From: Pseudanabaena sp.
Lineage (GTDB): Bacteria; Cyanobacteriota; Cyanobacteriia; Pseudanabaenales; Pseudanabaenaceae
Assembly: GCA_003249035.1 (NCBI GenBank)
Contig: QBMK01000008.1
Location: 1 to 64,000, forward strand
Reading direction: 5' to 3'
DNA length: 64,000 nucleotides
In this document: positions 1,296 to 19,595 of the stretch, one piece after another
How positions within the stretch are numbered: the stretch's first letter is position 1
Layout: each line of letters starts with the position of its first letter
Notes under the pieces: model-generated
Seen by the model: the letters and a program-made list of their open reading frames with translations, nothing else
Database searches by the model: none
What the model was told of the DNA's origin: nothing
Program-made: the position numbers and the translations under genes

Positions 1296-2759
1296 TTATG
1301 AAAGCCCTTGCCGATTGAAAAATTCTCGAAAGGTTTGGGTAGAATCTCGACGTTGATTTTGATAGGTCTTTAATAATTGTATGATTAGATTGGGAATATC
1401 TTTGGCAGAGTATTCTGAATGTAATTCCCTACCAAAATCAGTATTTCCGACACCAACATAAACCTTATAAACTTCGTGATAATTTGGGTCTTTTGATTGA
1501 ATTCCCACAAAAGCAATATCACTTGGATGGTGCTGAGCGCAAGACTTATCACATCCAGAAAAATGGATATTGATTGGGATATCAAGTTTAATACAGTTTT
1601 CCAGATGAGCAGCAACTTTTTTAGCATCAGCTTGTGTATCTGTAAATGCAGCTTTACATCCCTTATAGCCAGAACAAGCAGCGATCGCAGCATAGGGATG
1701 GTTCGCAGAAATAGATAAGCCCAAGTCATTAATTTCTTGCGACACCTGTTCAATTTGAGCCTCTGCAATATCCGTAATCAGAATATTTTGCCAAGGAGTT
1801 AGCCTCAGCGCTCCACCACCATATTGTCTTGACAAATCGCCTAATCCATGGAACTGAAGTGAAGTCAATCTTCCTAATGGAATGACCACCCCAATATAAG
1901 CAAGTTCCAATTGACGTTGGCTGTGAATACCCAAATGGTGATAAGCAATTCCTATTTTACTCTCCTGTGAGAGAAGCTCAAGGGATGATCGTCTTAAAGC
2001 ATAGCCTAACTTCTGTTCAACAAGTTGTAAATAACTTTCTACACCCCAATTACCAATCATTTCTCTTAATCGAGGAGGTCGGGCACATGAATTAGCTTGA
2101 TTTAATTTCTGTTCTGTATATTCCCGATAAACTTCTGTTAATGCGGCAAGAACTTGTAAGGTCTGTTCAGGATAAATTAATCTGCCTATCGCTGATGGAG
2201 AATCACCTCGATCGCCTAAACCTAGATGCAAACTAAAGTAAATCTCATTGTCAAACTCGACTGCTACAAAACAAATATCATTAGGGCGATCGCTTACGCT
2301 AATCGTCTCACCTCCATCAAAGCAAACACTAAATTTATTTGATAGAATCTCTAACTCTGGATGATTAGCTAGATAGAAATTCCATTGTTTAACAAAAGGA
2401 ACTGTATTGATTAGAGCATGAGGATCAATCCCTGAGGTGGGACTCGCCATAATATTGCGTAACCCGTCAGTGTTTGCCTCACTAGAAGCTAGCCCATAGT
2501 CTTGTAGATCTAGAAGAGTATCAAAACTTAAAGCTTGGCTAGTGCGAATTTGCAAATTACCTCGATTTGTAATTTGAATTTCACCATTACCAAATTGATT
2601 AGTGATATTGGTAACTAACTCACACTGCGTAGACGTAACTAATCCCGCAGGTAATCGCATACGAGAGAGGATGCCATCTTGGGCTGAAGTGGCATTAAAA
2701 AGACTAGGACAAATAGCTGTAGTAGATTGCAATTGAGAAAATTCCAAAAAAATAATCAT
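1296..2759 (-). CDS. cobG: CobG, precorrin-3B synthase
   Basis: Oxygen-dependent precorrin-3B synthase of the aerobic cobalamin pathway, a sirohaem/Fe-S enzyme of the nitrite/sulfite reductase fold. The N-terminal half has the ferredoxin-like entry CPSLFNATSAQDGILSR. The C-terminal half carries the four cluster cysteines in CSGYKGC (Cys362, Cys368) and SGCDKSC (Cys403, Cys407). At 487 residues it is of normal size for the family. I chose the ATG at 2759. A longer frame could start at a TTG at 2774, but that codon sits inside the hairpin that ends cobW. It is the third gene of a minus-strand unit after hupE and cobW, all downstream of a B12 riboswitch, which fits cobalt and corrin supply. Confidence 0.85.
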   Translation of the reverse strand: MIIFLEFSQLQSTTAICPSLFNATSAQDGILSRMRLPAGLVTSTQCELVTNITNQFGNGEIQITNRGNLQIRTSQALSFDTLLDLQDYGLASSEANTDGLRNIMASPTSGIDPHALINTVPFVKQWNFYLANHPELEILSNKFSVCFDGGETISVSDRPNDICFVAVEFDNEIYFSLHLGLGDRGDSPSAIGRLIYPEQTLQVLAALTEVYREYTEQKLNQANSCARPPRLREMIGNWGVESYLQLVEQKLGYALRRSSLELLSQESKIGIAYHHLGIHSQRQLELAYIGVVIPLGRLTSLQFHGLGDLSRQYGGGALRLTPWQNILITDIAEAQIEQVSQEINDLGLSISANHPYAAIAACSGYKGCKAAFTDTQADAKKVAAHLENCIKLDIPINIHFSGCDKSCAQHHPSDIAFVGIQSKDPNYHEVYKVYVGVGNTDFGRELHSEYSAKDIPNLIIQLLKTYQNQRRDSTQTFREFFNRQGLS

Positions 2760-2788
2760 AATAAGAAGGCGCAATGCGCCTTCTTATT
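2760..2788 (-). terminator. Hairpin between cobW and cobG
   Basis: Perfect inverted repeat with 14-base arms (2760-2773 and 2775-2788) around one base, so a small loop in practice. It lies two bases past the cobW stop. On the minus strand it is followed by a T-rich run that already belongs to the cobG start region. It may act as a partial terminator or as a processing site within the operon. Confidence 0.7.
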
Positions 2789-2790
2789 GT

Positions 2791-3831
2791 CTATAAACAT
2801 AGCGCTGATTCAATTTGCGATCGCTCTAAGGCTTGACCGATGAATACCAAACGGGTTTGACGAGGCTCATCACTAGTCCATAAGCGATCGTAGGAAGTCT
2901 CAAGGCGATCGCCTACGCCTTGTAACACCATGCGCATTGGTTTATTCGGCACATTTACAAACCCCTTGATGCGATAAATTTCCTGATCAGCGATCGCTTG
3001 TTTGAGCGAAGCGAGTAATTGAGTTGGCTCAAAAGCTTGATCTGTCACAATATTAATCGAATTAATATCATCATCATGCTCATGCTCTTCTTCAGTATCA
3101 TGATGGCTAGGACGTGCATCGAGATCATCCTCAACTGCCGCATTAAAGCCTAAGAGAATCTCTGAGCTAATCTTGCCATCATCACAAGCAACAACCTTCA
3201 CACCATCGCGCAATTCTTGCTTTAACCAAGACTGCACCTTAGCTTGAGCTTCAGCATCAATCAAATCTGTCTTAGTCAGTACCACCAAATCTGCACAAGC
3301 CAACTGATCTTCAAATAGCTCCTCAATCGGAGTTTCATGATCGAGATTGGGATCTTCCAGACGTTGAGCATTCAAAGCATCAATATCTGTTACTAATCTT
3401 CCACTAGCGACTGCCTCGCAATCTACCACTGCGATCACACCATCAACAGTTGCCCCATTGCGAATTTCTTGCCAACGGAAGGCTTGGATTAAGGGCTTTG
3501 GCAGAGCCAAACCAGATGTTTCAATAAGGATGCAGTCAATGCGATCGCGTATTTTCAGAAGTTCTTGCATGGTTGGCAAAAATTCTTCTTGCACGGTGCA
3601 GCAAAGACAGCCATTCGTCAATTCCACAATGTTTGGAGTGATTTCTTTGCCATCTTCATCACACACACGACAAGAACGTAGCAAATCACCATCAATACCA
3701 ATTTCGCCAAATTCATTTACAAGTACAGCAATTCGCCGACCTTGATTATTTTGTAACTGTTCCCGAATCAGTGTGGTCTTGCCACTGCCTAGGAAGCCAG
3801 TAATCACAGTTACAGGTATTTTCGCTGCCAT
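2791..3831 (-). CDS. cobW: CobW-family GTP-binding metallochaperone
   Basis: G3E-family P-loop GTPase (CobW/COG0523), a metal chaperone; members deliver cobalt for cobalamin or zinc to other enzymes. Visible are the P-loop GFLGSGKT (residues 12-19), the metal-binding CxCC motif in GCLCC (Cys75, Cys77, Cys78), TKTD for guanine recognition, a His/Asp/Glu-rich linker near residue 245 and a C-terminal CobW_C domain. I chose the ATG at 3831, which has GAGAAG before it and starts four residues before the first strand. The frame is open 30 codons further up, but that part crosses the hairpin ending hupE. Its place between hupE and cobG under a B12 riboswitch points to cobalt and the true CobW role rather than zinc. 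The function is inferred from context. Confidence 0.85.
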   Translation of the reverse strand: MAAKIPVTVITGFLGSGKTTLIREQLQNNQGRRIAVLVNEFGEIGIDGDLLRSCRVCDEDGKEITPNIVELTNGCLCCTVQEEFLPTMQELLKIRDRIDCILIETSGLALPKPLIQAFRWQEIRNGATVDGVIAVVDCEAVASGRLVTDIDALNAQRLEDPNLDHETPIEELFEDQLACADLVVLTKTDLIDAEAQAKVQSWLKQELRDGVKVVACDDGKISSEILLGFNAAVEDDLDARPSHHDTEEEHEHDDDINSINIVTDQAFEPTQLLASLKQAIADQEIYRIKGFVNVPNKPMRMVLQGVGDRLETSYDRLWTSDEPRQTRLVFIGQALERSQIESALCL

Positions 3832-3880
3832 AATCTTCTCTAAAAAATTTAAAAGCTCCCACTTTTGCAAGTAGGGAATC

Positions 3881-3916
3881 AAAAGTAGCGGCAATTCATG
3901 AATTGCCGCTACTTTT
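3881..3916 (-). terminator. Hairpin downstream of hupE
   Basis: Perfect palindrome with 18-base arms (3881-3898 and 3899-3916) in the gap between hupE and cobW. In RNA it would form a long stem with a small loop. No strong U run follows on the minus strand, so it could equally be an mRNA stabiliser or processing site in the hupE-cobW-cobG unit. Confidence 0.65.
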
Positions 3917-3933
3917 GTCAAGAAAAAACTTCT

Positions 3934-4608
3934 CTAACCCTTAGGTACTGGAAGAATAAGAGATGAAATATTGGAAGCTAGAAATGCTGCTCCAATTCCA
4001 CAAATCACCAATCCAGCCGATCTTAAGTTAGGAGCAGCCTGAGCAAAATCGCCATTTAGTACTTTCTTGCCAACAAAAAATGCTGCGCTTGAAATCACTA
4101 ACTGAATTACGGTAAATCCACATAAATAAGCAACTAAAGCTGTGGTTTGTGCTCCAAAGATCGCTTCACCGTATGCGTAGCCGTGAAATAATCCTGCGAA
4201 TATGGATAGCCCAACCATCATTAAAACGTTAGGGCTATTCTTGAGTGCCATCAAAATTCCAAACAACAAAATGGATGCTGATACTACTAATTCAACTACA
4301 GGTAAGGTCATACCTAATAAATGAATTCCTGTACCGAGCATCGCTGATAAAACAAAGAAAATTGGAATCAAAATGCCACGGGGCTTAAGGGCAGCAAATA
4401 AACCAACTGCAATAATAAATGCAAGATGATCGACTCCAATCACAGGGTGGGCTAAGCCTGATAAAAAACCTTCAAAAAAAGTGCTGGGCATTTTTCCACC
4501 CATAGCGTGGTGTGCTGAGGCGGGACTAGCTACAACCAAGAGACTAAAACCGATCGCGATCACAAGCGCCTTAGACTGGATTGACGCAAAAAGCTTAGAT
4601 ATATTCAT
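3934..4608 (-). CDS. hupE: HupE/UreJ-family metal transporter, probably cobalt
   Basis: HupE/UreJ family membrane permease for nickel or cobalt. A signal peptide ending in ASPASA precedes the mature start HHAMGG. The family signature HPVIGVDHLAF follows, and the rest is a series of about six hydrophobic segments with conserved HGYAYGEA. I chose the ATG at 4608 (224 residues). The frame continues upstream to 4656, but that stretch lies in the riboswitch B12 box and cannot be coding in the usual sense. A cobalamin riboswitch directly upstream and cobW/cobG downstream make cobalt the likely substrate; comparative genomics has proposed this for B12-controlled HupE proteins in cyanobacteria. Transport itself is not shown by the sequence. 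Confidence 0.85.
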   Translation of the reverse strand: MNISKLFASIQSKALVIAIGFSLLVVASPASAHHAMGGKMPSTFFEGFLSGLAHPVIGVDHLAFIIAVGLFAALKPRGILIPIFFVLSAMLGTGIHLLGMTLPVVELVVSASILLFGILMALKNSPNVLMMVGLSIFAGLFHGYAYGEAIFGAQTTALVAYLCGFTVIQLVISSAAFFVGKKVLNGDFAQAAPNLRSAGLVICGIGAAFLASNISSLILPVPKG

Positions 4609-4639
4609 ATTCTGTAACTCGCAGATATAGACAATGAAA

Positions 4640-4760
4640 CTAGTTCTAGCGGGCATCCTGACTCTAAGCTGATTGTATACATGTCAGCTTTTACAGTTGC
4701 GGTACAGCGTTGGACTTTCACCAAACTTTCCCCATTTTGAAAACTAAGCAAATACAAACA
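4640..4760 (-). promoter_or_regulatory. Cobalamin (B12) riboswitch upstream of hupE
   Basis: Read on the minus strand, the segment has the ordered conserved blocks of the cobalamin aptamer: GGGGAAAG, then GGTGAAAGTCCAAC (4709-4722), CCGCAACTGT (4693-4702), a variable stem AAGCTGA...TCAGCTT, and the B12 box AGTCAGGATGCCCGCTAG (4646-4663). The spacing fits the class. The box ends about 38 nt before the hupE ATG, leaving little room for an intrinsic terminator, so control at the ribosome binding site is likely. A further 9-bp hairpin lies upstream around 4778-4803. Exact boundaries are approximate. Confidence 0.88.
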
Positions 4761-4907
4761 ATCTACTTAATTTCACTTTTTAACGGCTGATCCCCGTTAA
4801 AACTAGAACAGCTTTTTGACTCTACAATAATTCGTAGTTCTTTGTTAAAAAATACTTATAGATTTACAAAATGTAGGCGGCTATCATTTCTGGAATTGTT
4901 TTATCCC

Positions 4908-4960
4908 AAAACCCAAAATTGGTTCGGCGGGCTTCGCCCGCCGAACCAATTTTGGGTTTT
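4908..4960. terminator. Long perfect palindrome after xseB
   Basis: Arms of 25 bases (4908-4932 and 4936-4960) around the loop TTC, with a GC-rich core and AAAACCC/GGGTTTT outer ends. It sits 139 bases past the xseB stop, in the gap before the hupE riboswitch, so it can end xse transcription. The rest of the gap (4761-4907 and 4961-5098) shows no gene. The same outer ends recur at 21945-21999 and 34640-34692 with different cores. Confidence 0.65.
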
Positions 4961-5098
4961 ATTTAATTTTCACTCCTAAATTACTATCTAAAGCTCTTGC
5001 TGTAGAGATTAAATTTCTTTTTGGAGTAGGCGGGTATAAATCTTAATTTAATAGCAATTTCCAGTTTGAAGAGAAAAGATTGCCCTATTTTGACATTC

Positions 5099-5320
5099 TC
5101 AGGAATTTCGGCTTTGAATAAGTGTGACTTTCTGCTCAGCCTTTTCCAGATAATCACGGCAATATTGCGATCGCTTCATACCTTCTTCATAGATAGATAG
5201 CATCTCATCTAGAGCAGTTTCACCATTGTCGAGAATTTCTACAATTTCCTCAAGCCGCTGCATTTGGGCTTCAAAGGGTAAATCTTTTGGTTTCTTTGGT
5301 GATTTATTCTGTTCGGTCAT
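5099..5320 (-). CDS. xseB: Exodeoxyribonuclease VII small subunit
   Basis: XseB, the small subunit of exonuclease VII, which degrades single-stranded DNA from both ends. The 73-residue protein has the standard pattern FEAQMQRLEEIVEILDNGE, followed by LDEMLSIYEEGM and a C-terminal helix, predicted as a short helical hairpin. Its start overlaps the end of xseA by 17 bases in another frame, so the two are translationally coupled and made together. Confidence 0.93.
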   Translation of the reverse strand: MTEQNKSPKKPKDLPFEAQMQRLEEIVEILDNGETALDEMLSIYEEGMKRSQYCRDYLEKAEQKVTLIQSRNS

Positions 5321-6518
5321 ATACTTTATTGATTACTTTCTCTATCTTGGCTTGGGCTACTTCTGAACGCCGCACGATTTCCACTTTATCAAATTCAGTG
5401 AGCGAATCATCATTACTGAGTAAGCGATCGCCTGAACGCAATAAAGCAAAACCCCGTTGTAATGGGGATAGTGGATGTAGCGATCGCAGATGGGCAGTTA
5501 TACCTTCAAGTTTAGTTTTGGATTGATGCAAATGGCGAACGAGCGACTTTTGCATTTCATTTTCGGCTTCGTCTAACTGTTGGGTGCGATCATGAAGGCG
5601 GTCGCTAAAATTCTGCAAAGCATAACTCTTAATAATCATATTCAATCGCTGGTGGTAATTCTGCATTTCTAATTGGACAGAGCTATTTAGGCGATTTTCC
5701 CAAACGATGATCTGTTGCCATAGTGTATCGCGATCATATTGAGATGCCAGTTCCGCCGCAGCCGTCGGCGTAGCAGCTCGTATATCTGCCACAAAATCCG
5801 CGATCGTAAAGTCGGTTTCGTGTCCAACAGCAGAAATAACCGGAATGCGTGAATTATGGATTGCTTCGGCAACTGGCAACGTATTAAAAGCCCAAAGATC
5901 TTCAATAGAGCCGCCACCACGCCCCACGATTAGCACATCCGCATCGGTATTTTGCAAAGCTTTGATTGCCGCCGCAATCTCCTCAGAAGCATTTTCGCCT
6001 TGCACAGTTGCTGGGCATAAATAAATTTCACAATGAGGCGATCTCCTATTTAACGTGCTGAGAATATCCTGAATCACTGCTCCTGTTGGTGAAGTTACCA
6101 CCCCAATTTTGAGAGGGAAAGCAGGAATACCCCGTTTTCGTTCTGGGGCAAAATATCCCCGCGCAGCAAGTTCTTCTTTGAGCGCAGCAAAGGCAAGATA
6201 GAGATCGCCTTGTCCTGCGGCAGTCATGCGATCGCAATCAATCTGATACTTGCCTCGAGTGGCATAAACCGTCAATCGTCCTTCAATGACAACTTGCATT
6301 CCACTTTTTGGACGAAATGCTAAAGTGCGGCTTGCCCACATCACACAATCGATCTGGGCTGACTCATCCTTAAGGGTAAAATAACGATGTCCAGAGGCGG
6401 CTGTAGTAAATCCTGATATTTCTCCTGTCACTCGCACAATGCCAATTTCATCACGCAACAAAAGCGAAATCGCTTGTGTCAAATTAGCAACGGTCATCGC
6501 TTCTTTAGAACTTTTCAT
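5304..6518 (-). CDS. xseA: Exodeoxyribonuclease VII large subunit
   Basis: XseA, the catalytic subunit of exonuclease VII. An N-terminal OB-fold (VRVTGEISGF, HRYFTLKDE) is followed by the nuclease core with GVVTSPTGAVIQDI, the VLIVGRGGGSIEDLWAFN signature and ISAVGHETDFTIADFVADIRAATPTAAAE. A coiled-coil region and a C-terminal LQRGFALL element complete it. I chose the ATG at 6518, preceded by AGGG. The frame is open to an ATG at 6569, but that would overlap the divergent gene; a start at 6497 is also possible. About 404 residues is normal. It forms an operon with xseB. Confidence 0.93.
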   Translation of the reverse strand: MKSSKEAMTVANLTQAISLLLRDEIGIVRVTGEISGFTTAASGHRYFTLKDESAQIDCVMWASRTLAFRPKSGMQVVIEGRLTVYATRGKYQIDCDRMTAAGQGDLYLAFAALKEELAARGYFAPERKRGIPAFPLKIGVVTSPTGAVIQDILSTLNRRSPHCEIYLCPATVQGENASEEIAAAIKALQNTDADVLIVGRGGGSIEDLWAFNTLPVAEAIHNSRIPVISAVGHETDFTIADFVADIRAATPTAAAELASQYDRDTLWQQIIVWENRLNSSVQLEMQNYHQRLNMIIKSYALQNFSDRLHDRTQQLDEAENEMQKSLVRHLHQSKTKLEGITAHLRSLHPLSPLQRGFALLRSGDRLLSNDDSLTEFDKVEIVRRSEVAQAKIEKVINKVYDRTE

Positions 6519-6568
6519 AAACCCTGCTAACTGCACAATCTTCTTATATGAATACTTTTTATGACTCA

Positions 6569-6973
6569 ATGAAACATTCTATGATGCTTTTCGCCGCCTT
6601 ACCCTTGATATTATTACCAGCCTCAGTCAAAGCTGAAGTTGCCGTCCAAGATAGTCAAGGCAACTACTACAGAAATGAAACTAACGTACATGCGACAAGA
6701 TCATCTAGATATGGTACTGGTTCGCTCTGGCGGGTGGTGGTTGGTAAACTCAACTGTCGTCAAGAGCCTAGTATGGATAGTCAGGTAAAACGTACTTATG
6801 TTGCTGGCGATCTTTTAGAAGTACAAATCTATCGGGGGGGATCTGATGAAGTTTTTATAAATCCGAAAGATAAAAATGGTAAGCCTTGGATGCCTGTTCG
6901 TAATGGTAATTCGTCAGAAAAAACATGTTATGTGAGGGCAAATAGTCGATTTATTAGCCCAGTGATTAAGTAA
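6569..6973 (+). CDS. Exported small SH3-like domain protein
   Basis: A 134-residue protein with a signal peptide (MKHSMMLF, hydrophobic core, cleavage near VKAEVA). The mature part resembles a bacterial SH3 (SH3b) domain: GKLNCRQEPSMDSQV, then AGDLLEV and a C-terminal PWMPVR strand with CYVRANSRFI. Such domains bind cell-wall or surface ligands, but the ligand here is unknown. The start at 6569 gives a normal signal peptide; an ATG at 6548 is also possible. The gene is divergent from xseA and converges on psbA. The last 17 coding bases, including the TAA stop, form the outer part of a large palindrome. Confidence 0.7.
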   Translation: MKHSMMLFAALPLILLPASVKAEVAVQDSQGNYYRNETNVHATRSSRYGTGSLWRVVVGKLNCRQEPSMDSQVKRTYVAGDLLEVQIYRGGSDEVFINPKDKNGKPWMPVRNGNSSEKTCYVRANSRFISPVIK

Positions 6974-14730: not shown

Positions 14731-14822
14731 AAATAATTAATGTGAATACATTGCGATCACAATTATAGTTGAGCTATTAAGCCCAATAATAGCTGCGATA
14801 TTTGGTAGAGGATTTGGCGATT

Positions 14823-17630
14823 ATGCAAAACATCCTAGATCATATTCAATGCGGAATCTTTGTTTTGACGGTTGAAGCAAATACGCAAGTATCAGATCTC
14901 AATGATCAGGGATTTATTCTGCGGTTTGCGATCACTAATTCTACATTTGTCCATCTTGTGTTTGGGGAACGTAGTATCGATCAAACTGTAAATCTAGTTG
15001 GGTTACAGCCAAAGGAATGTTTGTCTTTAGGATTTGCGGAATTATTGAACAAATATGCTAGTCAATGTTTGCAAACACGACAAGTTGTTATGTTTGAAGA
15101 ACAACTTGATTTGGTGACAAATCGGATGCTAGCGATTTTGCTATCCTTAGAGATTGATAGTATCAACAATTCAGCGCAGATCGTCGGAACTTGCCAAGAT
15201 ATTACTGACAAATCACTATCAAAATCCCAAGTTCAAGCCCTCAATCAAAAGAAATTCAGCCAGTTAGTGAGTGAAGTTTCTGACGCTTTTGTGGTGGTTG
15301 ATCGTGAAGGTGTGGTGCGTTATGTTAATCAGTCAGCCGAGAGCCTATTTGGGTGCAAATCAGAAGATATAGTCGGTGAGACTTTTGGACTGCCTGTAGT
15401 AGCTGGGGAAAGCACAGATGTCGATATTCTCAACCGAGGTGGTACCACTTCTGCGGAAATGCGTGTATCTGAAGCAATTGATGAAGATCGTAGAGTGTAT
15501 GTGGTTGCTTCATTGCGAGATGTCTCAGAACGTAAGCGGGTAGAAGAGTCGCTGAAATTGCGTGAACGGGCGATCGCCGCAAGTTCTAATGGGATTGTGA
15601 TTACCGATGCCACCCAGCCGAATAATCCGATGATTTATGTTAATCCCAGCTTTGAGAGGATTACTGGCTATAGTGCGGCGGAAGTAATCGGGCATGATTG
15701 TCGTTTTTTGCAAGGCGGCGATCGCAATCAGCTCGGTCTTTTAGAGTTACGCAAAGCTATTGAGGAAAAGCGGGAATGTCACTCTGTCCTGCTCAACTAT
15801 CGCAAAGATGGCACGCCATTTTGGAATGATTTGTATATTGCACCAGTCTTTAGCGATCATGGGGAACTTACTAACTACATCGGTATTCAAACCGACATTA
15901 CTGAACAAGTAAAATCAAACCAAAAATTGCTGGGAAGTGAAGAGCGCTTGCTTACTGTACTGACATCGATCAAAGAAGGCATTACCTTTAGTGATGATTC
16001 TGGCTATTTTTCGATTTTTAATGATGGGATGGAAACTCTTACGGGGTATACACCTATTGAAGCAAATGCTAGCAAAGATTTCACGACTTTTCTTTATCCC
16101 GATCAAGCTGAACATGATAAAGCTTTGCAACGATTACAGCTACTACAGGAAAAGGGGCAACCGATGACTGTCGAGACTCGTATTTGTCATCGTGATGGCA
16201 CATTTAAAGATGTATTAGTCTCCTCCAGACTAATGACATACAAAGATAAAAGGATGTATTTAAGCAGTTATTACGACATTACTGAGCGGAAAAAAGTCGA
16301 GACACAACTGCGTTATCAAAGTGAACGAGAAAGATTACTGAATGCGATTTTACTTAAAATTCAATGCGAACTAAATCTCGATCAAATCCTAGCAATCACT
16401 GTTAGAGAGGCTCAAGAATTACTACGCATCGATCGCGTGGCTATTTATCAGTTCCAAGAAAATTGGAGCGGTAAATTTGTTGTGGAAGCTGTTAATGAAC
16501 CAAGATTTTCTATTATTGGGAAAACAGTTTATGACGAATGTCTTAATCAATATTATGTAGATAAACATAAAAATAGACCTATCTCCAATATAAATGACGT
16601 CGATATTGCAGATATAAGCCCTTGTCATAAAGATCTTTTGAAACGTTTTCAAGTGAAAGCAAATATTGTAGTTTCTATTTCTTTTGGGGATACGCTATGG
16701 GGATTATTAATCGCTCATCAATGTCTTGCACCTCGGCAGTGGGAAGGATTTGAAATCGATCTGCTAAGACAATTGGCTAATCATGTAGCGATCGCGATTC
16801 AACAAGCAAAATTATTTGAAAGGGTCCAAGAATTAAACAAAAGCTTAGAAATCCAAGTAGCCGATCGCACCCAACAACTCAAGCAGAGTCTGAGCCAACT
16901 AGAAAGAGCTTTACTCAAAGAGAAAGAACTCAACGAATTGAAATCGCAATTTATTTCTAGGGCTTCCCACGAATTTCGAACACCACTAGCAACGATCCAG
17001 ACAGCAAGTGATCTGTTGCGAAACTATGGACATAAAATGTCAGACGATAAAAAAATAGAGCGCTTCGACAAAATTCAGCGGGAAGTTAAAAATATGACCA
17101 ATCTTCTGGAAGAAGTATTGATAGTTGGTAAATCTGAATCTGGAAAATTTGATTTGCAGCCAGAAGAAATTAATCTAGAAGACTTTTGTCTAGAAATTAT
17201 CGAACAAACCAAGTTTATAGGAGATGGCAAACATCAAGTTATTTTCAAAAATATTAATGTTCCTATAAAAATATCAATTGACCCCAAACTCTTTAAGCAA
17301 ATTATCTCTAACTTACTATCAAATGCGATTAAATATTCGCCTGATTCTAGAGAAGTTAACTTTACTATTTCGCTAACTAACGATCGTATTTCACAACTTT
17401 TATTAGAGTTTAAAGATCAGGGAATTGGGATTCCTTTAATTGATCAAGAGAAGATTTTTGACCATTTTTATCGCGCCCAAAATGTTGGTATGATCGTAGG
17501 AACTGGATTGGGGATGGCAATTATCAAGAATTCGGTTGATATCCTAGGTGGCATAATTCAACTTACTAGTGTTGAGAATCAAGGCACTACTGTAAAGGTA
17601 AAACTTCCTTACCCCCTTCCCAATGAATAA
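14823..17630 (+). CDS. Hybrid-input sensor histidine kinase: PAS-PAS-LOV-PAS-GAF-HisKA-HATPase
   Basis: A 935-residue soluble kinase. Domains: PAS-like (1-125), PAS (145-240), LOV (245-360), PAS (370-490), GAF (505-665), coiled coil, HisKA (706-775), HATPase (815-928). The LOV domain has GHDCRFLQ with the flavin-reactive Cys293, Asn325 and Asn335 in LNYRKDGTPFWN, and Gln356 in GIQTDIT. The GAF domain resembles cyanobacteriochromes: SPCHKDLL gives the canonical bilin Cys601-His602, a DECL sequence (571-574, Cys573) lies where DXCF types carry the second Cys, and LWGLLIAHQC follows. The phosphorylated His716 is in SHEFRTP; the ATP site has NLLSNAIKYS, DQGIGI and GTGLGMAI. I chose the ATG at 14823, after GAGGA; a TTG at 14802 is possible. 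An inverted repeat (17626-17668) spans the stop. Confidence 0.9.
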   Translation: MQNILDHIQCGIFVLTVEANTQVSDLNDQGFILRFAITNSTFVHLVFGERSIDQTVNLVGLQPKECLSLGFAELLNKYASQCLQTRQVVMFEEQLDLVTNRMLAILLSLEIDSINNSAQIVGTCQDITDKSLSKSQVQALNQKKFSQLVSEVSDAFVVVDREGVVRYVNQSAESLFGCKSEDIVGETFGLPVVAGESTDVDILNRGGTTSAEMRVSEAIDEDRRVYVVASLRDVSERKRVEESLKLRERAIAASSNGIVITDATQPNNPMIYVNPSFERITGYSAAEVIGHDCRFLQGGDRNQLGLLELRKAIEEKRECHSVLLNYRKDGTPFWNDLYIAPVFSDHGELTNYIGIQTDITEQVKSNQKLLGSEERLLTVLTSIKEGITFSDDSGYFSIFNDGMETLTGYTPIEANASKDFTTFLYPDQAEHDKALQRLQLLQEKGQPMTVETRICHRDGTFKDVLVSSRLMTYKDKRMYLSSYYDITERKKVETQLRYQSERERLLNAILLKIQCELNLDQILAITVREAQELLRIDRVAIYQFQENWSGKFVVEAVNEPRFSIIGKTVYDECLNQYYVDKHKNRPISNINDVDIADISPCHKDLLKRFQVKANIVVSISFGDTLWGLLIAHQCLAPRQWEGFEIDLLRQLANHVAIAIQQAKLFERVQELNKSLEIQVADRTQQLKQSLSQLERALLKEKELNELKSQFISRASHEFRTPLATIQTASDLLRNYGHKMSDDKKIERFDKIQREVKNMTNLLEEVLIVGKSESGKFDLQPEEINLEDFCLEIIEQTKFIGDGKHQVIFKNINVPIKISIDPKLFKQIISNLLSNAIKYSPDSREVNFTISLTNDRISQLLLEFKDQGIGIPLIDQEKIFDHFYRAQNVGMIVGTGLGMAIIKNSVDILGGIIQLTSVENQGTTVKVKLPYPLPNE

Positions 17631-17694
17631 TTAGTGGATCACGGAGTAGCCTCGAACTACTAATTATTTAATTTATAACGGAACAAACTAAATT

Positions 17695-19410
17695 ATGACA
17701 ACGATTCTAGTCATTGAAGATGTAGAAGCTTTACGCGAAGAGATCATGGAAACTCTCTCCTATGAGGGATTTGATGTACTGGGAGCAGAAAATGGACTTA
17801 TTGGAGTCCAAATAGCCAAAACCTATTTACCGAATTTAATTATTTGTGACATAGCCATGCCAGAACTGGATGGTTACGGAACTCTAATTGCTCTGCGTCA
17901 AGAACCGAAAACATCAATGATTCCGTTTATATTTTTAACGGCAATGACGGAAAAAGCTGATATGCGTCAAGCCATGCAACTAGGTGCGGATGATTATCTT
18001 ACAAAGCCATTTACCTCTGCAGAATTATTCGGTGCGATCGCTGCACGATTGCAAAAGTTTAACTCAGCGAGAGAGCATTACTATGATGAAATCAAAGCAG
18101 CTGGGGAAAAATATGAATATTTATCTCACCATGATGGTTTAACACAACTGCCAAATCGCGTACTTTTTTATGAGTCCTTAAGCAAAGCCATATTAGAAGC
18201 AAAGGTTAACAACAAATCTTTAGCTTTGCTATTTCTAGATATAGACAATTTCCATATCATTAACAATACCCTTGGCAATGATCTTGGCGATCAATTGTTT
18301 AAGGAGATCGCGGATCGCCTAAAGCTCTACATCGCGCCATTCGATATGGTGGCGCGCATCCAAGGCGATGAATTTGCATTGATCATTTCTGATGCTAAGG
18401 ATACCGCCAGCATCAAACTCGAAGCCCAGAAAATCCTCGACTTACTAAGCCGTCCTTACCATGTATACGGGCATGAGGTTTTCATTACTAGTAGTATTGG
18501 CATCACCATTTTTCCTGAAGATCTTCAAGAAGTTGAAGGATTAATCAAAAATGCTGAATTAGCTATGTATTACGCCAAGAATCATGGCAGAAATAGCTAC
18601 AAGATCTATAGTCCAGAACTAAATGTCCAATCCTCAGAATATATGGCATTAGCCAACAGCCTACATAGAGCTATTGATCGTAAAGAGATTCTGGTTTTTT
18701 ATCAGCCTATAGTCAGTCTTCAATCAGGCCAAATCGTTGGTGCTGAAGCCCTGGCTAGGTGGCAACATCCTGACTTAGGGCTGATTATGCCAAACAAATT
18801 TATCCCTGTTGCTGAGCAAACAGGTCTTATTTTGCGTTTGAGTGAGGTGATTCTATATTCGGTCTGTTCACAAATGCGATCGTGGCGAGAATCTGGCATA
18901 AATTACGGATTTATTGCTGTCAATCTGTCTGGTCAGCATTTTCGCCCAGACACTAATCTGATTGAATTTGTTAGGAAGGTTTTACAAGAAACTAATACAG
19001 AGCCAGATCATTTAGAACTCGAACTTACTGAAGGTATCATTATGCAAAATGCAGAATATACGATTCAGGTGCTATCGCAATTGCGAGAAATAGGTGTAAA
19101 AGTAGCGATCGATGATTTTGGAACAGGTTATTCTTCTCTGAGCTATCTCAAGCATTTTCCAATAAATATACTTAAGATTGATCGCTGTTTTATCCAAGAC
19201 ATTACGACAGATCATCATGATGCAATGATTTCCCTATCAATCATCGATCTTGCACATAGTTTGCCATTAAAAGTTATCGCAGAAGGGGTCGAGACTGTTG
19301 AGCAGATGCAGTTTTTAAAAGATAATGGGTGCGATAAGTTTCAAGGATATCTTTTTAGTCCACCTTTACCTGCGACTGAATTTGAACAAATGCTGATTGA
19401 GGGAAAATAG
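17695..19410 (+). CDS. Response regulator, REC-GGDEF-EAL
   Basis: A 571-residue c-di-GMP regulator, 64 bases after the LOV/GAF kinase and probably its partner. The receiver domain (1-120) has the phosphorylated Asp52 in ICDIAMPELDG and Lys104 in LTKPF. The GGDEF domain (145-305) has QGDEF (223-227) instead of GGDEF, so cyclase activity is doubtful, and it may only bind GTP. The EAL domain (320-565) keeps EAL (351-353), the Asn in VNLSGQ, ELTEG, the DDFGTGYSSLSYL pair, KIDRCFI, EGVET and QGYLFS, so phosphodiesterase activity is likely. The predicted output is lowered c-di-GMP, which in cyanobacteria affects motility and aggregation. Confidence 0.92.
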   Translation: MTTILVIEDVEALREEIMETLSYEGFDVLGAENGLIGVQIAKTYLPNLIICDIAMPELDGYGTLIALRQEPKTSMIPFIFLTAMTEKADMRQAMQLGADDYLTKPFTSAELFGAIAARLQKFNSAREHYYDEIKAAGEKYEYLSHHDGLTQLPNRVLFYESLSKAILEAKVNNKSLALLFLDIDNFHIINNTLGNDLGDQLFKEIADRLKLYIAPFDMVARIQGDEFALIISDAKDTASIKLEAQKILDLLSRPYHVYGHEVFITSSIGITIFPEDLQEVEGLIKNAELAMYYAKNHGRNSYKIYSPELNVQSSEYMALANSLHRAIDRKEILVFYQPIVSLQSGQIVGAEALARWQHPDLGLIMPNKFIPVAEQTGLILRLSEVILYSVCSQMRSWRESGINYGFIAVNLSGQHFRPDTNLIEFVRKVLQETNTEPDHLELELTEGIIMQNAEYTIQVLSQLREIGVKVAIDDFGTGYSSLSYLKHFPINILKIDRCFIQDITTDHHDAMISLSIIDLAHSLPLKVIAEGVETVEQMQFLKDNGCDKFQGYLFSPPLPATEFEQMLIEGK

Positions 19411-19492: not shown

Positions 19493-19595
19493 ATACCAAA
19501 ACACAAAATGGCATAGCCATTTTGTGTTTTTAAAACCTTTACTGGGTTTTGTTTTTAATCCATAAAAGTGTCGTCACACTTTTGTGAATTGGTAT
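19493..19595 (-). repeat. 103-nt three-hairpin dispersed repeat, copy A
   Basis: Non-coding element with terminal repeats ATACCAA/TTGGTAT and three inner hairpins. Relative to the copies at 28343 and 50354 it lies in the opposite orientation; all three copies are exactly 103 nt. It lies between the response regulator and gmd. The rest of this 291-base gap holds nothing else I recognise. Confidence 0.85.

Follow-up and report, generated by a model that had tools for sequence, protein, structure and literature searches.

Whether a single cyanobacterial histidine kinase can sense light through a flavin and through a bilin in the same chain, and where such a kinase would send its signal, is the question raised by a gene in a 64,000-nucleotide stretch of Pseudanabaena sp. 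DNA (hereafter the window). The original prediction, made from the letters of the DNA, had described the product as a kinase with both a LOV domain and a DXCF-like cyanobacteriochrome (CBCR) GAF domain. The kinase and its sensory parts are located as follows.

14823..17630, + strand: open reading frame of a sensor histidine kinase, 935 aa, ATG start (open reading frame and translation, Pfam, full-length model)
Modules of the kinase, in residues: PAS1 (1–130), PAS2 (140–245), LOV (250–362), PAS3 (375–490), GAF (505–670), HisKA/HATPase (700–932)
15570..15908, + strand: LOV domain with photo-adduct Cys293 (15699–15701), Asn325, Asn335 and Gln356, and the FMN-phosphate arginines R294, R301 and R310
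16335..16832, + strand: CBCR-type GAF domain with the second-Cys motif DECL (Cys573, 16539–16541) and the canonical Cys601-His602 (16623–16628)
16746..17036, + strand: predicted continuous helix (residues 642–738) from the GAF domain into the DHp helix, a signalling coiled coil (AF2 full-length model)

Pfam matches far over their cut-offs were obtained for PAS/LOV (residues 247–361), GAF (518–659), HisKA (707–774) and HATPase (820–930); the PAS-type domains matched lie N-terminally, at the LOV position and C-terminal to it. The HisKA domain carries the acceptor His716 and, together with the HATPase domain, marks the protein as a sensor histidine kinase; no membrane domain is among its Pfam matches. 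The long helix that leads from the GAF domain to the DHp helix is predicted in a full-length AF2 model of a single chain, with a pTM of only 0.36. An in-frame TTG is located at 14802, seven codons 5' of the kinase ATG.

The LOV domain has a PAS core, and its photo-adduct cysteine (Cys293) and flavin-contacting residues (Asn325, Asn335 and Gln356) are all found where the original prediction had placed a complete LOV set. Its motif, GHDCRFLQG, has DCRFLQG instead of NCRFLQG and fits the pattern Gx[ND]CRFLQ. The best matches among solved structures are LOV proteins, and the top one (7r5n, a ‘Sensory box protein’, E = 3e-41) also reads DCRFLQ. No ortholog from the genus deviates at the Cys, at either Asn or at the Gln (26/26), and dN/dS in the domain is mostly 0.03–0.08, which indicates strong purifying selection. 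In the slow-cycling PpSB1-LOV, the FMN phosphate is held by four arginines, R54, R61, R66 and R70 (PMC13322254). Counted from the Cys, three of the four are present here (R294, R301 and R310), and the equivalent of R66 is Leu306. Since the R66I variant of PpSB1-LOV recovers in about 23 min versus 2471 min for the wild type (PMC6047819), the adduct of the kinase LOV domain can reasonably be guessed to last between minutes and tens of minutes.

The GAF domain is of the CBCR type, without a PHY domain, and matches CBCR structures in the PDB with E-values of 3e-37 to 1e-20 (phmmer). The closest solved GAF is that of PPHK (40% identity). Cys573, Cys601 and His602 are all at the positions originally given for them, and the two checks proposed for this domain, alignment with DXCF cyanobacteriochromes and modelling, both came out in favour of the assignment. 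The alignment with TePixJ is ungapped across 146 residues (34% identity) and places DECL over DPCF and CH over CH, so that Asp571 and Cys573 fall on the Asp and Cys of the DXCF motif; Cys601-His602 also aligns with the bilin Cys-His of Slr1393g3. The AF2 model of the domain (pLDDT 87.9) superposes on TePixJ (4glq, rmsd 1.5, Foldseek) and on PPHK. By homology with these structures, Cys573 and Cys601 would both face the bilin pocket. The second Cys and its preceding Asp, which characterize the DXCF subfamily, are present and the literal D-X-C-F is absent, so ‘DXCF-like’ is an apt label where a strict ‘DXCF’ would not be.

Residues linked to isomerization of phycocyanobilin to phycoviolobilin have been described as a non-Trp residue at the WXDXXL position, the Ile of GLLI and a Val after the Asp (PMC11284453), positions that were defined in GAF domains of the red/green lineage. 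Two of them fit in the kinase (Val569, which is non-Trp, and Ile630), and the residue after Asp571 is an unusual Glu572, not Val; the two fitting positions mildly favour a blue/green photocycle. An extended red/green CBCR identity was ruled out, as there is no Trp at position 569. The CcaS/RcaE-like type was likewise ruled out: the genome encodes two such GAF domains (L168 and L169), which read EEVF with Cys-Leu.

Sequence, fold and conservation thus support the co-occurrence, in one kinase, of the complete LOV set with a CBCR-type GAF domain that has its two cysteines, and chance motif matches were ruled out by the profile scores, the gapless alignment and the conservation of the residues. 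An ortholog of the kinase was found in all 26 Pseudanabaena genomes examined and in 34 of the 38 genomes of the family (E = 1e-130). The LOV Cys is kept in 26/26 genus orthologs and both GAF cysteines in 23/26, nearly all Cys-bearing orthologs reading DXCF at the second-Cys motif, unlike the DECL of the window. In the three exceptions the LOV domain is intact (L022 and L024 are without both GAF cysteines, and L016 is without the canonical one), which indicates that bilin sensing is dispensable. Outside Pseudanabaena but inside the family, L158 is without the second GAF Cys, the LOV position of L165 is without the key residues, and L162–L164 keep both GAF cysteines and have no LOV domain; the LOV domain of L162–L165 was either lost or never gained. 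The absences are scattered on the tree, on which long branches leave the deep order unsure, and this pattern means that either input can be missing from a kinase that persists with the other. The LOV and GAF modules therefore look separately useful, as judged from these sequences.

The GAF pocket of the window kinase is itself divergent. Region 545–605 has 66% identity to the closest ortholog (versus 96% for the LOV domain and 89% for the kinase core), where comparable ortholog pairs have 85–95%, and its dN/dS is 0.22–0.30, versus about 0.04–0.10 in the LOV and kinase parts. All four key residues (Asp571, Cys573, Cys601 and His602) are retained. Along the gene (14823–17630), dS against the nearest ortholog is 0.15 in PAS1 and climbs to about 0.8 across the GAF and kinase parts. 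This gradient suggests recombination inside the gene, which, given such uneven dS, may contribute to the divergence of the pocket. The fast change of the pocket might reflect retuning to another colour, the import of a segment that had already diverged, or the onset of decay.

The original prediction had also called the combination uncommon, and this holds across cyanobacteria but not within Pseudanabaena, where it is fixed; it is also present independently elsewhere. A search with a strict LOV motif, which overlooks LOV variants and whose counts are a sample, found matches in 107 of the 291 genomes of the class. Among the 99 LOV reading frames listed, 89 are from outside the family, and five of these carry a CBCR-type GAF domain. 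In four of them (L055–L058) the LOV domain lies directly 5' of the GAF domain, and in L073 the GAF domain is ahead of the LOV domain. The DXCL motif also occurs in these independent CBCR-type GAF domains (L055, L056 and L057). The remaining GAF domains of LOV frames (scores 20–51) were rejected as CBCRs, as they are without the CBCR Cys motifs. A LOV and a CBCR domain in one protein is uncommon, not unique; our literature search, with incomplete survey coverage, found no paper describing a LOV-CBCR fusion. The L055 protein (3807–6791, +) is a LOV kinase with two tandem CBCR-type GAF domains (DTCL with CY, and DTCF with CH). L073 encodes a kinase of a separate family (3282–5885, −; CBS-GAF-PAS-LOV-HisKA_2), adjoined by a REC-GGDEF-EAL gene (1526–3292, −) whose EAL residues look degenerate.

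The original prediction was silent on the gene that adjoins the kinase in the window, whose product is the likely output of the kinase.

17695..19410, + strand: response regulator REC-GGDEF-EAL, 571 aa, with phospho-acceptor Asp52, QGDEF as the GGDEF motif and intact EAL catalytic residues (Pfam)
19498..19531, + strand: putative terminator-like palindrome and T run after the regulator gene (read in the sequence)

The regulator gene starts 64 bases 3' of the kinase gene, and the two are adjacent on the same strand in 14/14 family loci read (the window, nine further named loci and one more genome of the genus, and three from other genera). Flanking genes differ between genera while the pair stays together. 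The regulator has a REC domain with Asp52 and the EAL, N, E, DD, K, E and Q motifs of a c-di-GMP phosphodiesterase, and its GGDEF motif is altered (QGDEF in the window, RGDVF or QGDQF in other genera). The intact EAL domain and altered GGDEF motif make phosphodiesterase the likelier activity, and c-di-GMP breakdown is a likely output. There is precedent in the CBCRs SesA/B/C, which steer phototaxis via c-di-GMP (PMC9090330). An inverted repeat, AATAATTAGT...ACTAATTATT (17626–17668), is located in the gap between the genes and could form an RNA hairpin.

The sequences themselves show the domains, the key residues and their conservation, the pairing of the two genes and the genes for bilin synthesis; from these features we infer chromophore binding, its colours, the partnership of kinase and regulator, phosphodiesterase activity, the sign of the effect and the physiology. 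In the LOV domain, blue light would join FMN to Cys293 in an adduct. Independently, Cys601 would hold a phycocyanobilin-derived chromophore, to which Cys573 would make a second, reversible bond. This chromophore would toggle the GAF domain between two states of different colour, for which the analogy with DXCF CBCRs makes blue and green absorption the most likely pair. Helical linkers would carry both inputs to a shared DHp helix (His716), where they would shift one kinase/phosphatase balance. Phosphate would then pass to Asp52 of the adjoining regulator and alter c-di-GMP breakdown and, through it, pilus motility or biofilm formation. The kinase thus probably blends two colours into one motility/biofilm signal, and a soluble two-input photoreceptor kinase with a partner c-di-GMP regulator is, as a whole explanation, the account that we consider rather probable. 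For the logic of the two colours we offer a tentative proposal that we rate somewhat below even: the LOV and CBCR domains would both answer to blue light and green light would reset the CBCR only, so that c-di-GMP would be set by the kinase according to both the intensity of blue light and the blue/green ratio.

The main competing explanation is that in the window strain the kinase is a blue-light-only LOV kinase in which bilin sensing by the GAF domain is gone or fading, with the domain left as a structural relay. The DECL in place of DXCF, the accelerated change in the pocket and the genus orthologs that have an intact LOV domain and are without both GAF cysteines (L022 and L024) or the canonical one (L016) point in this direction; but Asp571, Cys573, Cys601 and His602 are all kept, DXCL is shared with the independent CBCR-type domains of L055, L056 and L057, and the pocket dN/dS of 0.22–0.30 is well under 1, so we regard it as unlikely. 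The opposite arrangement, a kinase driven by the CBCR, its flavin domain sensing redox or oxygen and not light, would be in line with the relatives that keep the GAF without a LOV domain (L162–L165) and with the ability of flavin PAS domains to sense redox (RmcA is discussed in the review PMC8846402). A flavin domain that sensed redox only would have no need of the adduct Cys, yet in the genus orthologs neither this Cys nor the two Asn and the Gln ever vary, and we consider this arrangement highly improbable. It is also conceivable that both domains bind their chromophores and the kinase does not signal to the adjoining regulator, because many histidine kinases are encoded in the genome and adjacency alone is not proof of phosphotransfer. 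The constancy of the pair in all 14 loci, on one strand and amid flanking genes that vary between genera, renders this improbable.

Several known systems resemble parts of the proposed two-input kinase and its regulator. TePixJ-type DXCF CBCRs (3vv4, 4fof, 4glq) share with the kinase GAF the gapless alignment, the Cys-His, the Asp-preceded second Cys and the Ile in GLLIAHQ; they differ in the motif (DPCF in TePixJ, DECL here) and in the output, which is a chemotaxis transducer in TePixJ and a histidine kinase here, with a LOV domain in the same chain. LOV histidine kinases and the short LOV proteins of Pseudomonas putida (PpSB1-type) have the DCRFLQ core, the three shared arginines and a helical link toward the kinase in common with the window protein, but they are without a bilin domain, the window LOV is flanked by further PAS domains, and Leu306 takes the place of R66. 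The Thermosynechococcus Ses proteins (PMC9090330) likewise place c-di-GMP under light control by CBCR GAF domains, but they make or break c-di-GMP themselves and are without LOV domains, whereas the window kinase is proposed to act through a second protein, the regulator. SL2 of Synechococcus elongatus (LOV-GGDEF-EAL; PMC8846402) also couples a LOV input to c-di-GMP breakdown, in one chain that has no other light input. Plants and algae have single-protein fusions of bilin and flavin photoreceptors too (neochrome and dualchrome), but these join a eukaryotic phytochrome with phototropin or cryptochrome, and their outputs are unrelated to the window kinase.

In the dual-sensor histidine kinase PPHK, too, a CBCR GAF domain is coupled to the kinase, and a second input, phosphorylation, is received. 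The PDB titles of its structures (6oap, 6oaq, 6ob8) mention a BeF3- state; in contrast to the window kinase, the second input is not a LOV domain, and the GAF domain reads DQYF and so has no second Cys. Integration of two signals by a single coiled coil has been studied mainly in PPHK and in engineered chimeras, such as YHF (LOV and heme PAS; PMC6798134). The family described here comprises natural dual-input kinases together with relatives that miss one input, so the share of each input could be measured directly, and it suggests that c-di-GMP is switched by two colours of light in a common filamentous cyanobacterium.

For chromophore supply, the genome encodes a heme oxygenase and two full-length genes of the bilin-reductase family. 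With the strict LOV motif, no match beyond the kinase was found in this genome, which also encodes further CBCR-type GAF domains. In other Pseudanabaena (L136, L137, L139 and L140) there is an additional LOV protein, about 1200 aa long, followed by a GAF domain without a bilin Cys. A kinase with a CcaS/RcaE-like GAF domain (L169 and L052; G000 contig C15, 22925–27601) lies within a few kb of a bilin-reductase-family gene, a neighbourhood that is perhaps a chromatic acclimation cluster.
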